Positions 33,209 to 62,733 of a stretch of DNA of 64,000 nt are shown here, piece by piece (the stretch's first letter is position 1; the number at the start of each line of letters is the position of its first letter). The notes beneath the pieces were generated by a model. That model did not search any database and was not told where the DNA came from. It worked only from the letters and a program-made list of their open reading frames with translations. A program made the position numbers and the translations under genes. The stretch is from Gillisia hiemivivida (GTDB lineage Bacteria; Bacteroidota; Bacteroidia; Flavobacteriales; Flavobacteriaceae), in the NCBI RefSeq assembly GCF_007997295.1, contig NZ_VORY01000002.1, positions 248,001 to 312,000 on the forward strand, written 5' to 3'.

Positions 33209-33231
33209 CACATAGGTTATTTGCAGTTTAC

Positions 33232-33266
33232 AAAAAAGGTGGCCAATTAATTGGCCACCTTTTTTG
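33232..33266. terminator. Bidirectional intrinsic terminator
   Basis: A perfect palindrome with arms AAAAAAGGTGGCCAATT and AATTGGCCACCTTTTTT lies between the thioredoxin-like gene and the convergent transglycosylase gene. Confidence 0.92.
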
Positions 33267-56223: not shown

Positions 56224-58020
56224 ATGAAAACATTATCCAACCACATGATCGAAATTAAACGACTATTTGATTTTCCTTACTTTCAATTAGAAAATCACCC
56301 CTTAGAGAAAGCATTAGTTACTAAATATAACGGTAAATGGGAATCCCTAAGTACTCAACAATATATAGATAAAGCGAATGCAGTAAGTAGAGGTTTATTG
56401 CGCTTAGGAGTAAAACCCAACGATAAAATAGCTATTATCTCCTCTAGCAATAGAACAGAGTGGCATATTATGGATATTGGGATCCTACAAATAGGAGCTC
56501 AAAACGTGCCTATTTATCCAACAATTTCTCAGGAAGATTATGAATATGTTTTAAACCATAGTGGTGCAACCTACTGTTTTGTATCAGACCAAGAAGTTTT
56601 AGAAAAGGTAAATGCAATAAAACATAATACCCAGCTAAAGGAAGTTTATTGTTTTGACAAAATCGATACCTGTAAAAACTGGACAGAAATTGTAGAGCAG
56701 GGTAAAGATGAAAGTAATCAACAGGAAGTGGATGCTCTTAAAGATGCGGTCTCAGAAGATGATCTTGCTACTTTAATTTATACTTCCGGGACCACCGGAA
56801 GACCTAAAGGAGTTATGCTTTCTCACAAGAATATAGTAAGTGATGTTTTAAATAGTGCACATCGCGTGCCGTTTGAAACAGGTAAATACGTAGGATTAAG
56901 TTTCTTGCCTATCTGCCATATTTTCGAGAGAATGATCTCTTACCTCTATCAGTACTATAGTGTTTCAATTTATTTTGCTGAATCTATAGAAAAAATAAGT
57001 GACAATCTTAAGGAAGTACAACCACATGTAATAACTGCTGTACCAAGACTACTTGAAAAAGTATACGATAAAATTATTGCAAAAGGGACTGCATTAGGTG
57101 GAGTTAAACAAAAATTATTTTATTGGGCAGTAGAATTAGGTTTACAGTACGAGCCTTACGGCGCGAATGGCTGGTGGTACGAAACACGACTAAGCCTTGC
57201 TAGAAAACTGATATTTTCTAAATGGAAAGAAGGTCTTGGAGGAAATATAGAATTAATAGTCTCTGGTAGTGCGGCTTTACAACCCAGGCTAACTAGGGTA
57301 TTTGCTGCTGCTGGAATCCCGGTAATGGAAGGCTATGGATTAACAGAAACTTCCCCAGTTGTAGCAGTAAATGATGAACGTAATGGCGGATTCAAAATTG
57401 GTACTGTAGGTAGAGTGATAGATAATGTAGAGGTTAAGATCGCTGAGGATGGGGAAATCTTAACAAAAGGGCCCAATTTAATGATTGGATACTTTAAGGA
57501 TAAAGAAAAAACAGATGAGGCCATAAATTCTGAGGGGTGGTTCCATACTGGAGATATAGGTGAAATTGATTCAGAAGGTTTCTTGAAAATCACCGATAGA
57601 AAAAAGGAAATGTTCAAAACTTCCGGGGGTAAATATGTAGCTCCACAGTTAATCGAGAATACCATGAAACAATCTCGCTTTATAGAACAGATCATGGTTA
57701 TTGGTGAAGGCGAAAAAATGCCTGCAGCATTGATTCAACCAAACTTTGAGTTTGTAGAGGAATGGGCAAACCGTAAAAATCTTGATATTGGGAAATCTAA
57801 TGAAGAGATTGTTAAAAACCAAGATGTGAAAGCACGGATTCAGGAAGAAGTAGATTTCTATAATGAAAAATTTGGTAGTTGGGAGAAGATCAAGAAGTTC
57901 GAACTTACTCCTGAGGTATGGAGTATAGAAAATGATCAGCTTACCCCTACAATGAAATTAAAAAGAAGAAATATTAAAGAAAGATATATGGACCTATACA
58001 ATTCTATCTACGAAAGGTAG
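56224..58020 (+). CDS. Long-chain fatty acid-CoA ligase
   Basis: A 598-residue AMP-binding enzyme of the FadD15/long-chain type. The P-loop is TLIYTSGTTGRPKGVMLSHK, followed by EGYGLTETSP, WFHTGDIGEID and the C-terminal ITDRKKEMFKTSGGKYVAP hinge. It activates fatty acids to acyl-CoA. It lies immediately upstream of the marR-led beta-oxidation operon and supplies its substrate. A terminator separates it from marR. Confidence 0.93.
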   Translation: MKTLSNHMIEIKRLFDFPYFQLENHPLEKALVTKYNGKWESLSTQQYIDKANAVSRGLLRLGVKPNDKIAIISSSNRTEWHIMDIGILQIGAQNVPIYPTISQEDYEYVLNHSGATYCFVSDQEVLEKVNAIKHNTQLKEVYCFDKIDTCKNWTEIVEQGKDESNQQEVDALKDAVSEDDLATLIYTSGTTGRPKGVMLSHKNIVSDVLNSAHRVPFETGKYVGLSFLPICHIFERMISYLYQYYSVSIYFAESIEKISDNLKEVQPHVITAVPRLLEKVYDKIIAKGTALGGVKQKLFYWAVELGLQYEPYGANGWWYETRLSLARKLIFSKWKEGLGGNIELIVSGSAALQPRLTRVFAAAGIPVMEGYGLTETSPVVAVNDERNGGFKIGTVGRVIDNVEVKIAEDGEILTKGPNLMIGYFKDKEKTDEAINSEGWFHTGDIGEIDSEGFLKITDRKKEMFKTSGGKYVAPQLIENTMKQSRFIEQIMVIGEGEKMPAALIQPNFEFVEEWANRKNLDIGKSNEEIVKNQDVKARIQEEVDFYNEKFGSWEKIKKFELTPEVWSIENDQLTPTMKLKRRNIKERYMDLYNSIYER

Positions 58021-58049: not shown

Positions 58050-58078
58050 TAAACTCTCCTATTTAGGGGAGTTTTTTT
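58050..58078 (+). terminator. Intrinsic terminator after the acyl-CoA ligase gene
   Basis: AAACTCTCC, a loop containing TATTTA, GGGGAGTTT and T-run. Confidence 0.82.
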
Positions 58079-58132: not shown

Positions 58133-58156
58133 ATTTATTATGCATGCATAATAAAT
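58133..58156. promoter_or_regulatory. 24-base perfect palindrome at the marR promoter (candidate operator)
   Basis: The left half ATTTATTATGCA and right half TGCATAATAAAT are exact complements with no spacer. It sits where the -33 element of the marR promoter would fall (-7 box TAACTTTG at 58162-58169) and is followed by the marR ATG at 58189. MarR dimers bind palindromes of this size. Confidence 0.8.
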
Positions 58157-58161
58157 TTTAT

Positions 58162-58169
58162 TAACTTTG
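58162..58169 (+). promoter_or_regulatory. -7 box of the marR/beta-oxidation operon
   Basis: TAACTTTG matches TAnnTTTG, 19 bases before the ATG. The palindrome overlaps its upstream half. Confidence 0.65.
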
Positions 58170-58188: not shown

Positions 58189-58641
58189 ATGAAGGAAAAA
58201 ACCATTGATTACGTTTTGCGGGCAACTTGGATTGCCGTTTCAAAAATGTATAATGAAGAAGCCGGAAAAGCTGGAAGCACTATGGCTACAGGTTTTGCCC
58301 TTTTAAGTATAGATCCAGAAAAAGGAACCCCCTCTACCTCACTAGGCCCAAAAATGGGTATGGAAGCTACTAGTTTATCCCGGATTTTGAAATCGATGGA
58401 AGAAAAAGGACTAATAATCCGTAAAAAAAATCCAAACGATGGTAGAAGCGTCTTGCTCCACCTTACCACTTTCGGAAAAGAAATGAGAGAATTCTCTAAA
58501 GGGGTAGTTTTAAAGTTTGATGAAGCTGTAAAGGAAAATGTAAGTGAAGAAGATCTTAAAACCTTTATAAAAGTAGCCAATTCTATATCGGATTTAATTT
58601 CTAATAAGAAAATCTATAATAAAGAGATAAGTTTAAAATAA
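58189..58641 (+). CDS. MarR-family transcriptional regulator
   Basis: A 150-residue winged-helix regulator. The recognition region is in LGPKMGMEATSLSRILKSME and the wing in IIRKKNPNDGRSVLLHLT, with dimerisation helices at both ends. It heads the beta-oxidation operon; the following gene begins 59 bases on. By analogy with other fatty-acid regulators it probably represses the operon and is released by acyl-CoA or a related ligand, but that is inference. The palindrome at 58133-58156 is its likely binding site. Confidence 0.92.
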   Translation: MKEKTIDYVLRATWIAVSKMYNEEAGKAGSTMATGFALLSIDPEKGTPSTSLGPKMGMEATSLSRILKSMEEKGLIIRKKNPNDGRSVLLHLTTFGKEMREFSKGVVLKFDEAVKENVSEEDLKTFIKVANSISDLISNKKIYNKEISLK

Positions 58642-58700: not shown

Positions 58701-61106
58701 ATGAAAAGAAGAATTAATAAAGTTGCAATCGTAGGTTCCGGAATCATGGGAAGCGGGATTGCATGTCATTTCGCAAATATTGGCGTTGAAGTATTGCTAT
58801 TAGACATAGTTCCTCGTGAACTTACAGATAAAGAAAAAAGCAAAGGATTAACTTTAGAGGATAAAGTAGTTAGAAACAGACTTGTGAACGATTCTTTACA
58901 GGCCTCATTAAAATCTAAGCCTTCTCCTATATATAGTCAATCTTTTGCTAGTAGAATTAACACTGGAAATCTGGAGGATGATATTGCTAAAGTTTCAGAA
59001 GTAGATTGGATCATAGAAGTTGTTGTAGAAAGACTGGACATAAAAAAGAAGGTTTTTGAACAATTAGATAATCATCGTAAAAAAGGAACTTTAATTTCTT
59101 CCAATACCTCAGGTATTCCAATAAAATTAATGAGTGAAGGACGAAGCGAAGATTTCCAGAAACATTTCTGTGGAACTCACTTCTTTAACCCGGTGCGATA
59201 TTTAAGATTATTTGAAATTATTCCTGGCCCAGAAACTTCGGAAGAAGTATTAGATTTCATGAATGAATATGGAGAGAAATTTCTAGGAAAAAAATCTGTA
59301 GTAGCTAAAGATACTGCAGCTTTCATTGGGAACCGAATAGGGATCTTCAGTATTATGAGTCTTTTCCACATGGTTGAGGAATCAGGTATGACGATTGAAG
59401 AAGTGGATAAACTAACAGGCCCCGTTATCGGAAGACCTAAATCTGCAACTTTTAGAACGGTAGATGTTGTTGGTTTAGACACCTTGGTTCATGTTGCAAA
59501 TGGGCTACATGAAGGTGTTCCAAATGATGAAAAACACGATTTTTTTGCCTTACCAAACTATATTGACTCTATGATGGAGAAAAAATGGTTGGGAAGCAAA
59601 AGTGGCCAAGGATTTTACAAAAAAATTAAGGGGGATGATGGTTCTAGCGAGATCCTTTCATTAGACCTTGAGACTCTTGAATATAGAGCCGCTAAAAAAG
59701 CATCTTTCGCAACTCTGGAACAAACTAAATCTATAGACAATGTTGAAGACAGATTCAAAGTATTAGTTGGTGGAAAAGATAAAGCTGGAGAATTTTATCG
59801 TAAGAATTTTTCTGCTCTTTTCGCGTATGTTTCTAACAGAATTCCAGAAATCACAGACGAACTATATAAAATAGATGATGCCATGAAAGCTGGTTTTGGT
59901 TGGCAACATGGCCCTTTCCAAATATGGGATGCTGTAGGTGTAGAAAAAGGAATTGAGATGATGAAGGCAGAAGGTGAAAAACCAGCTGCGTGGGTAAAAG
60001 AAATGTTAGAATCTGGTAGTAAGAGTTTCTATACTGTAAAAGAAGGAAACACTTATTATTATGATATCCCGAAGAAAGAACAAGTAAAAGTACCTGGACA
60101 GGATGCTTTTATCATTTTAGATAACATTCGTGAATCCAAAGAAGTATTTAAAAATAGCGGAGTTGTGGTTGAAGATCTTGGTGATGGAATCTTGAATGTA
60201 GAATTCAGAAGTAAAATGAATTCTATTGGAGGTGATGTTTTAGATGGCTTGAACAGAGCATTAGATATTGCTGAAAAAGATTACCAAGGATTGGTAGTTG
60301 CAAACAACGGAGCTAATTTCTCTGTTGGGGCAAATATCGGAATGATATTTATGATGGCTGTAGAGCAGGAATATGATGAGCTTAACATGGCTATTAAACA
60401 TTTCCAGGATACTATGATGAGAATGAGATATTCTTCTATTCCAACCGTAGCAGCTCCTCATGCTATGTCTTTGGGTGGTGGATGTGAATTATCATTGCAT
60501 GCAGATAAAGTAGTCGCAGCAGCAGAAACTTATATTGGATTGGTAGAATTTGGTGTAGGTGTTATTCCAGGTGGTGGTGGTTCCAAAGAGATGACTCTTA
60601 GAGCTTCAGACACATACCATAAGGATGATGTAGAACTGAACAGATTAAGAGAAAACTTTCTAACCATTGCAATGGCTAAAGTTTCAACTTCTGCTTACGA
60701 AGCTTTTGATACAAATATTCTTCAGAAAGGAAAAGATATAGTGGTAGTGAATCCAGACAGACAGTTAGCTATTGCGAAGAAGCATGCGTTAATAATGGCT
60801 GAAACAGGTTATACGCAACCAATTGAGAGAACAGATATTAAAGTTTTAGGGAAACAAGCACTGGGAACTTTCTATGTTGGAACAGACCAAATGTATGCTG
60901 GAAAGTATATAAGCGAGCATGATAAGAAGATCGCTAATAAATTGGCCTATGTTATGGCTGGTGGAGATCTTTCTGATGCTAACTATGTAAGCGAGCAATA
61001 TTTATTAGATCTAGAACGTGAAGCATTCCTTTCTCTTACGGGAGAGCGCAAAACGTTAGAACGCTTAGAACACATGATTAAAAAAGGGAAGCCACTTAGA
61101 AACTAG
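58701..61106 (+). CDS. fadN: 3-Hydroxyacyl-CoA dehydrogenase/enoyl-CoA hydratase (FadN-type)
   Basis: An 801-residue bifunctional beta-oxidation enzyme. The NAD-binding dehydrogenase comes first (GSGIMGSG, 12-19; HFFNPVRYLRLFEIIPG) and the crotonase-type hydratase last (VANNGANFSVGANIGM, then HAMSLGGGCELSLHADKVVA). This order is that of Bacillus FadN and is opposite to E. coli FadB/FadJ. It dehydrates and oxidises acyl-CoA intermediates before thiolysis by the thiolase encoded downstream. A four-helix-bundle gene separates the two. Confidence 0.93.
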   Translation: MKRRINKVAIVGSGIMGSGIACHFANIGVEVLLLDIVPRELTDKEKSKGLTLEDKVVRNRLVNDSLQASLKSKPSPIYSQSFASRINTGNLEDDIAKVSEVDWIIEVVVERLDIKKKVFEQLDNHRKKGTLISSNTSGIPIKLMSEGRSEDFQKHFCGTHFFNPVRYLRLFEIIPGPETSEEVLDFMNEYGEKFLGKKSVVAKDTAAFIGNRIGIFSIMSLFHMVEESGMTIEEVDKLTGPVIGRPKSATFRTVDVVGLDTLVHVANGLHEGVPNDEKHDFFALPNYIDSMMEKKWLGSKSGQGFYKKIKGDDGSSEILSLDLETLEYRAAKKASFATLEQTKSIDNVEDRFKVLVGGKDKAGEFYRKNFSALFAYVSNRIPEITDELYKIDDAMKAGFGWQHGPFQIWDAVGVEKGIEMMKAEGEKPAAWVKEMLESGSKSFYTVKEGNTYYYDIPKKEQVKVPGQDAFIILDNIRESKEVFKNSGVVVEDLGDGILNVEFRSKMNSIGGDVLDGLNRALDIAEKDYQGLVVANNGANFSVGANIGMIFMMAVEQEYDELNMAIKHFQDTMMRMRYSSIPTVAAPHAMSLGGGCELSLHADKVVAAAETYIGLVEFGVGVIPGGGGSKEMTLRASDTYHKDDVELNRLRENFLTIAMAKVSTSAYEAFDTNILQKGKDIVVVNPDRQLAIAKKHALIMAETGYTQPIERTDIKVLGKQALGTFYVGTDQMYAGKYISEHDKKIANKLAYVMAGGDLSDANYVSEQYLLDLEREAFLSLTGERKTLERLEHMIKKGKPLRN

Positions 61107-61542: not shown

Positions 61543-62733
61543 ATGAAAACAGCATATATAGTAAAAGCATACAGAACAGCAGTAGGGAAAGCACCTCGTG
61601 GAGTATTCAGATTTAAAAGACCTGATGAATTAGCTGCTGAAACCATCCAGTACATGATGGAAAAACTTCCAAATTTTGATAAGGACAGAATAGACGATGT
61701 TATTGTAGGTAATGCAATGCCGGAAGCTGAGCAGGGCCTAAATGTGGGTAGGTTTATATCATTAATGGGATTGGATACCGTTAAAGTTCCTGGGGTTACT
61801 GTGAATCGATATTGCGCTTCAGGACTTGAAACTATTGCAATGGCTTCTGCAAAAATTCAAACAGGAATGGCAGATTGTATTATTGCGGGTGGAGCAGAAA
61901 GTATGAGTTATATTCCAATGGGGGGTTATAAGCCAGTTCCAGATTATAAGCTTGCGGCACGAGGTCTTGAAGATTATTACTGGGGAATGGGACTAACTGC
62001 TGAAGCAGTTGCAAATGATTATAAAGTAAGCAGAGAAGATCAAGATGAATTTGCATTTAATTCGCATCAAAAATCATTGAAAGCGTTAAAGGAAGATAGA
62101 TTTCAGGATCAAATAGTTCCAATTAAAGTTGATGAAACTTATGTTGATGAGAATGGAAAAAAACAAACCAGATCCTATACAGTAAATAAGGATGAAGGAC
62201 CTAGAGCAGATACTTCTAAGGAAGTGCTGGCTAAATTAAGACCTGTATTTGCAGATGGTGGAAGTGTAACAGCTGGAAACTCATCTCAAATGAGTGATGG
62301 TGCTGCATTTGCATTGATCATGAGTGAAGAAATGGTAAAGGAATTAAATCTGGAACCTATCGCAAGATTAGTAAGTTATACCGCTGTAGGGATCGAGCCA
62401 AGGATTATGGGGGTTGCTCCTATTACTGCAATTCCAAAAGCATTGAAACAGGCTGGACTTCAACAAAAAGACCTTGAGCTAATTGAATTGAACGAAGCTT
62501 TTGCTTCTCAATCTTTAGCAGTAGTTAGAACTTTAGGTTTAGACCCAGAGAGAGTAAATGTAAATGGTGGAGCCATTTCTATGGGACACCCTTTAGGTTG
62601 TACCGGTGCAAAATTATCTGTTCAATTATTCGATGAGATGCGCAAACGTGATCTTAAAAATAAATACGGAATGGTAACTATGTGTGTGGGTACAGGACAA
62701 GGAGCTGCCGGAGTTTATGAGTTCTTATCATAA
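61543..62733 (+). CDS. fadA: Acetyl-CoA C-acyltransferase (thiolase)
   Basis: A 396-residue thiolase that cleaves 3-ketoacyl-CoA to acetyl-CoA. The nucleophile is Cys91 (NRYCASGLETI); NEAFASQSLAV, GGAISMGHPLGCTGAK with the catalytic His, and CVGTGQGAAGVYE with the second Cys are all intact. The context between fadN and an acyl-CoA dehydrogenase makes a degradative 3-ketoacyl-CoA thiolase more likely than the acetoacetyl-CoA-forming type. Confidence 0.96.
   Translation: MKTAYIVKAYRTAVGKAPRGVFRFKRPDELAAETIQYMMEKLPNFDKDRIDDVIVGNAMPEAEQGLNVGRFISLMGLDTVKVPGVTVNRYCASGLETIAMASAKIQTGMADCIIAGGAESMSYIPMGGYKPVPDYKLAARGLEDYYWGMGLTAEAVANDYKVSREDQDEFAFNSHQKSLKALKEDRFQDQIVPIKVDETYVDENGKKQTRSYTVNKDEGPRADTSKEVLAKLRPVFADGGSVTAGNSSQMSDGAAFALIMSEEMVKELNLEPIARLVSYTAVGIEPRIMGVAPITAIPKALKQAGLQQKDLELIELNEAFASQSLAVVRTLGLDPERVNVNGGAISMGHPLGCTGAKLSVQLFDEMRKRDLKNKYGMVTMCVGTGQGAAGVYEFLS

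Follow-up and report, generated by a model that had tools for sequence, protein, structure and literature searches.

A 24-nt perfect palindrome in front of a beta-oxidation gene cluster of Gillisia hiemivivida very probably serves as the binding site for a repressor encoded by marR, the first gene of this cluster. The palindrome lies in the window, which here means the whole 64,000-nt stretch of DNA that was analysed. We put the probability at roughly 0.86 that it acts as the operator of the MarR regulator encoded just downstream, which would repress its own beta-oxidation operon and would be released by a ligand of the acyl-CoA type. Regulator and site are found paired across the class Bacteroidia, and the pair is likely a control switch for fatty-acid burning. 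The features concerned are the following.

56224–58020, plus strand: acyl-CoA ligase (AMP-binding), upstream of marR; no site of its own in the G. hiemivivida genome
58051–58074, plus strand: intrinsic terminator in the ligase–marR gap; 10-bp stem followed by a T run; z −3.6
58133–58156, no strand: 24-nt perfect palindrome ATTTATTATGCATGCATAATAAAT (window sequence)
58136–58153, no strand: 18-bp candidate operator TATTATGCATGCATAATA, conserved upstream of marR family- and class-wide
58139–58150: core TATGCNNGCATA of the 18-bp candidate operator
58162–58169, plus strand: putative −7 box TAACTTTG (TAnnTTTG type), beginning 8 nt past the 18-mer
58189–58641, plus strand: marR, MarR-family regulator of 150 aa (PF01047, E 1.5e-11)
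58701–61106, plus strand: 3-hydroxyacyl-CoA dehydrogenase/enoyl-CoA hydratase fusion, 801 aa
61156–61503, plus strand: four-helix bundle protein of the 23S rRNA-intervening-sequence type (23S-IVP type, PF05635), within the operon
61543–62733, plus strand: acetyl-CoA C-acyltransferase (thiolase), 396 aa
62776–63033, plus strand: second four-helix bundle protein (23S-IVP type, PF05635), 85 aa
63175–64000, plus strand: acyl-CoA dehydrogenase, extending past the window end

The palindrome has 12-bp arms with zero spacer and is centred at 58144/58145. A sequence-only reading of the window had reported it as a spacerless 24-base palindrome followed by a −7 box and the marR start, and all of these were recovered, the start codon being the ATG at 58189. 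Both 23S-IVP-type proteins are interleaved with the beta-oxidation genes of the operon.

The MarR domain (PF01047) of the regulator scored 44.5 bits against a curated cutoff of 24.6. An AlphaFold model (pLDDT 85, pTM 0.70) was compared with known structures by Foldseek, and the 50 matches listed were all MarR-type regulators (TM-score by query 0.48–0.74), including MexR, CouR, MarR, MepR, SlyA and FabT. The predicted fold supports assignment to the MarR type and does not point to a particular ligand. Scores fell below the cutoffs of the SlyA equivalog NF002926 (34.8 bits, cutoff 120), the FabT equivalog NF050133 (20.6 bits, cutoff 200) and the best NCBIfam match, the Saro_0803 family NF053777 (43.9 bits, cutoff 200). 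The position and conservation of the palindrome suggest that this MarR-family protein has a palindromic operator in its own promoter.

In the mechanism that we propose, a MarR dimer would bind the two half-sites (TATGC...GCATA), which in the promoter of the marR-led operon are flanked by the −33 region and the −7 box. Because the bound dimer would block RNA polymerase at this beta-oxidation operon, MarR would repress its own synthesis together with that of the downstream enzymes. The same protein would control a small regulon comprising fadL for uptake, etfB-etfA for the electron acceptor of acyl-CoA dehydrogenase, and a thioesterase gene. An intermediate of fatty-acid breakdown would release MarR and so open the uptake, beta-oxidation and electron-transfer genes together; a long-chain acyl-CoA is the likeliest candidate, a guess based on pathway logic and on analogy with CouR. 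We infer binding, dimerisation, repression and ligand, whereas the DNA itself shows the site, where it lies, that it is conserved together with marR, and which genes adjoin it.

Conservation was examined at the window locus and 80 loci from named records, which ranked best among 533 relatives and most of which are titled Flavobacteriaceae or belong to genera that we take to be members of this family. The sequence-only reading had made its claim depend on conservation of the palindrome upstream of orthologous operons, and the 18-bp site was found upstream of marR at 81 of 81 loci, a count of loci that are related by descent and therefore not independent. Within 250 nt of marR, 80 loci had the site with ≤4 mismatches (78 with ≤2). 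Matches to TATTATGCRYGCATAATA in this interval were exact at 31 loci and had one mismatch at 32, two at 15, three at one and four at one. Locus L006 has none inside 250 nt and an exact site at 278 nt from marR. Among 2156 random segments of the same loci, used as a control, three matched with 2 mismatches and none with fewer.

The association extends well beyond the family. In 149 genomes of the class, a MarR match at E ≤1e-15 was present in 73 genomes (31 families by hand count). Of 78 MarR matches, 64 had the exact core TATGCNNGCATA inside their 200-nt upstream region, or 68 if one mismatch was allowed; shuffled upstream regions gave 0/3900 and 32/3900, respectively. Core-bearing marR genes reach down to 34% MarR identity to the window protein. 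Counted by genome, the core (≤1 mismatch) lies at the first-copy marR in 68 of the 73 marR-bearing genomes and was not found inside 200 nt of this gene in the other five (L216, L254, L255, L268, L276). All five second MarR copies (L244, L258, L263, L265, L270) lack the core, and they are from genomes in which the first copy has it. A homologue of the hydroxyacyl-CoA dehydrogenase was present in the 1.5-kb flanks of 29 of 30 loci having both flanks. In a phylum sample of 118 genomes, all 21 MarR-positive genomes among the matches listed belong to the class Bacteroidia. In some marR or flavin-oxidoreductase promoters the operator is present twice, or a further core lies close by (L144, L195, L249, L266, L283).

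A search of the genome for the palindrome at other lipid genes, also suggested by the sequence-only reading, led to fadL, etfBA and a thioesterase-like gene. With ≤3 mismatches the full 24-mer occurs at only two places in the 3.73-Mb genome, the site at 58133 and a position upstream of an OMPP1/FadL-type gene (PF03349, E 8e-58). For the 18-bp form, ≤1 mismatch gives four sites, in front of the marR operon, of fadL, of etfB-etfA (with pdhB divergent) and of the 4HBT thioesterase-like gene, whose divergent neighbour encodes an alpha/beta hydrolase. At ≤3 mismatches there were 9 places versus 3 in the control. The 2-mismatch places C3:94753, which is inside a coding frame, and C50:2911 are probably due to chance or unexplained, and the three places with 3 mismatches are no more than the control gives. 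The marR and fadL sites recur in each of five additional genomes from the genus; the etfB site is present in four (not G229), as is the thioesterase site (not G236, where the fourth site is inside a frame).

For the wider family, at least 79 sites were listed from the window's genome and 19 of the other 79 family genomes, those listed first (for G040, at least those sites listed). They are located at marR (19), etfB (18), nitronate-monooxygenase-type flavin oxidoreductase genes (11), fadL (7), TonB receptor genes (5), GDSL-like lipoprotein genes (3), M3 peptidase genes (3), biotin carboxylase genes (2), FabH-like synthase genes (3, and one more shared with marR), thioesterase genes (2, and two more shared with flavin oxidoreductase) and a short-chain dehydrogenase gene (1); five are others or unassigned. 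The M3 peptidase and biotin carboxylase genes were named by eye. Sites L146 and L147 (G078) have no called gene beside them, and L126, L173 and L191 are inside called ORFs, with L173 preceding etfB and L191 preceding marR. The genes at L176 and L304 are presumably dienoyl-CoA-reductase-like. Sites at uptake, beta-oxidation and electron-transfer genes, as expected of a regulon for fatty-acid degradation, occur in the family, and this pattern is weaker outside it. Some site-bearing genes have no obvious lipid role, namely those for the M3 peptidase, the TonB receptor and biotin carboxylase. The M3-type peptidase sites (L132, L141, L162) and the TonB-dependent receptor sites (L122, L133, L156, L167, L189) come from several genera; the receptor might import lipids.

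MarR-positive genomes of other families contain, besides the sites at marR itself, 23 sites, of which only 8 lie beside clear beta-oxidation-type genes. The link to marR thus holds throughout the class, whereas the larger regulon has good support in the family and only partial support outside it. The eight precede genes for acyl-CoA dehydrogenase (L312, L316, L322, L327), etfB (L323, L347), a ligase plus flavin oxidoreductase (L310) and a short-chain dehydrogenase (L304). Of the two etfB sites, L323 is from an order-level relative and L347 from another family, where etfB is again divergent from pdhB. Two others of the 23 (L314, L328) precede an iron-sulphur protein, which we take to be FadF-like, although NCBIfam at E 1e-30 gave no match for L328. 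The gene at L332 is presumably FadH-like; its NCBIfam matches, of FadH/OYE type, were all below cutoff. Three of the 23 sites are inside frames and ten have no obvious link. Sites L309 and L320 (two genomes of one genus) and sites L318 and L319 (two places in G201), exact or relaxed, lie before genes for pairs of similar proteins that look secreted; a lipid role is not evident for these.

The distance between site and promoter differs among targets. At marR the site occupies the place of the −33 element, and a −7-type box follows 8–9 nt past the 18-mer in all 80 loci with a site ≤250 nt from the gene. TAnnTTTG is the −7 consensus of the Bacteroidetes type; it is present in 68 of these loci and TAnnTTTA in 12, which take in all 10 loci titled Aquimarina. 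At etfB a box of pattern TAnnTT[TC]G, mostly TAnnTTCG, starts 18–20 nt past the site in 15 of 18 cases, as judged by eye. By the same inspection of the same 20 genomes, TAnnTT[TC]G is found at 8–9 nt in 17 of 19 marR promoters, with one TTTA box at 8 nt. The etfB register therefore places the site one helical turn further upstream than the marR register. For pdhB, which is divergent from etfB, control by the site is not favoured: the TAnnTT[TC]G box is ≥41 nt past the site in 17 of 17 cases, with a nearer box as well in only 3 (by eye).

The longer etfB spacing in 15 of 18 sites, compared with 8–9 nt at marR, raises the question whether the regulator activates at some targets, where a site 18–20 nt from the box could recruit polymerase. 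We consider this unlikely, as most MarR proteins are repressors, and occlusion is equally possible at etfB because a site 18–20 nt away would also cover part of the −33 region. The fadL core is asymmetric, TATGTAYGCATA, with TATGT in place of TATGC in one half of 11 of 12 sites (L085, L145, L172, L175, L178, L183, L285, L289, L292, L295, L299; the exception is L128). The changed half always faces away from fadL, giving a fadL-type operator form TATGTATGCATA. Near the fadL sites, no standard −7 box was seen at a constant position. Since no recognisable −7 box adjoins the site at fadL or at the TonB receptor gene, simple occlusion is not extended to these two targets.

The site also occurs at many loci, and binding by MarR is predicted from sequence, so the operator could belong to a different transcription factor with marR as merely one target. 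We judge this quite improbable. The site tracks marR in presence and position class-wide, and marR is its most regular neighbour. Of 80 Flavobacteriaceae-type genomes, each representing a different genus, 77 had the 18-mer TAYTATGCRYGCATARTA with ≤1 mismatch, and the reversed-pattern control gave 2 sites in total. MarR was found in 79 of the 80 (9/10, 69/69 and the window's own genome); G017, the sole family genome without marR, has no site either. At one mismatch there was no site in G051 and G076, which have diverged MarR proteins (49–51% identity) and 2-mismatch versions of a relaxed pattern upstream of marR, nor was there one beside the marR gene present in G078. Class-wide, sites were found in 29 of 73 marR-positive versus 3 of 76 marR-negative genomes (Fisher p 5e-8). 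The three sites of the marR-negative genomes (L324–L326) fall within called frames, and the in-frame sites L306, L307 and L321 of marR-positive genomes are probably chance occurrences. Moreover, the layout, in which a free dinucleotide separates two 5-bp half-sites, is similar to the consensus TTAGCAAGCTAA of the MarR-family protein SlyA, as given in an excerpt of PMC5797941.

The palindrome is able to fold as RNA, and the element could in principle be a hairpin or terminator and not a protein site. This reading was rejected as very improbable: folding of the region barely beats that of shuffles (z −1.2), the palindrome sits upstream of the putative promoter box, a terminator was called at 58051–58074 and none at the palindrome, and near-identical sites occur at unrelated promoters and between divergent genes. 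A sigma-70 scan at the locus gave 2 matches versus 1.9 expected. Chance formation in AT-rich DNA can be practically dismissed. The arms are AT-rich, and when the 64-kb window was simulated 60 times with a first-order Markov model, 16-nt perfect palindromes did arise (1.7 per window), but the longest reached 22 nt (0.03 per window) and 24 nt in none of the 60, and class-wide conservation, upstream of orthologues too, refutes a chance origin. Two longer perfect palindromes exist in the window, of 38 nt at 2776–2813 and 36 nt at 33231–33266; they have the form CAAAAAAG...CTTTTTTG with centre AATTAATT and by eye resemble two-way intrinsic terminators.

Control of fatty-acid degradation is textbook knowledge for Proteobacteria and Firmicutes, where FadR of E. 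coli (GntR family), FadR of Bacillus (TetR family) and PsrA (TetR family) are beta-oxidation repressors released by acyl-CoA or fatty acid. The logic proposed for the MarR regulator is similar, a ligand-released repressor of beta-oxidation and related genes, whereas protein families and operators are unrelated. FabT is a MarR-family regulator of fatty-acid synthesis; it resembles the present protein in acting at lipid genes and in structure (match 6jbx) and differs in that the present regulator would control degradation. CouR, a repressor in aromatic-acid catabolism, shares the MarR fold (6c2s, the second-ranked fold match) at ca. 20% identity; its p-coumaroyl-CoA and DNA complexes, according to the PDB titles of 5cyv and 6c2s, parallel the CoA-ester ligand proposed here. 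SlyA is likewise a winged-helix MarR protein, and the SlyA-DNA structure 3q5f was among the Foldseek matches. In the excerpt of PMC5797941, its palindromic core shows the 12-bp layout seen here, with 5-bp half-sites on either side of a dinucleotide, and a site is listed near its own gene slyA. Unlike SlyA in that excerpt, which has TTAGC half-sites, the regulator studied here would have TATGC half-sites and fatty-acid targets.

An autoregulated MarR operon is of an ordinary kind; this member, its operator and the class-wide pairing appear to be new. In the literature searched, which was mostly outside subscription journals, we found no description of these operator letters or of MarR control of fatty-acid degradation in Bacteroidetes, nor any described regulator of this pathway for the Bacteroidota. 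Tentatively, and with somewhat less than even confidence, we suggest that the MarR-operator pair is an ancestral, undescribed master switch of fatty-acid degradation in the class Bacteroidia with a FadR-like role, using the register (8–9 versus 18–20 nt) and the fadL half-site change so that control differs in strength, or even in sign, between targets. If the operator reading is right, a single strain would suffice to test one gene with its exact operator, the promoter geometry and the list of targets, and the search pattern would annotate the regulon in many genera. It would also add a new half-site specificity to the MarR family, for which the diverged orthologues and the motif-less second copies form a natural set for specificity studies.

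Sequence evidence bears out part of the interpretation offered by the sequence-only reading: the palindrome has the features of an operator for the neighbouring MarR, is placed to block the promoter and is conserved. Its further proposal, that the regulator may also control the upstream acyl-CoA ligase gene via ATGCAT at about 56203, was not supported: those letters exist there, yet the best match to the 18-mer in 250 nt has 7 mismatches, which is no site, and control of the ligase by this route was rejected for the G. hiemivivida genome. The intrinsic terminator at 58051–58074 separates the ligase gene from marR. Ligase upstream regions were scored at 55 of the 80 loci, with 17 loci without ligase, 5 with a partial one and L042, L048 and L050 left out because the region taken there contained the marR site. 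A site with ≤3 mismatches was found at 8 of the 55, all titled Aquimarina, and the other 47 have 5–8 mismatches. At these Aquimarina loci (L067, L068, L071, L072, L079–L082) a separate AACTATGCNNGCATARTA site belongs to the ligase gene that lies upstream of marR.
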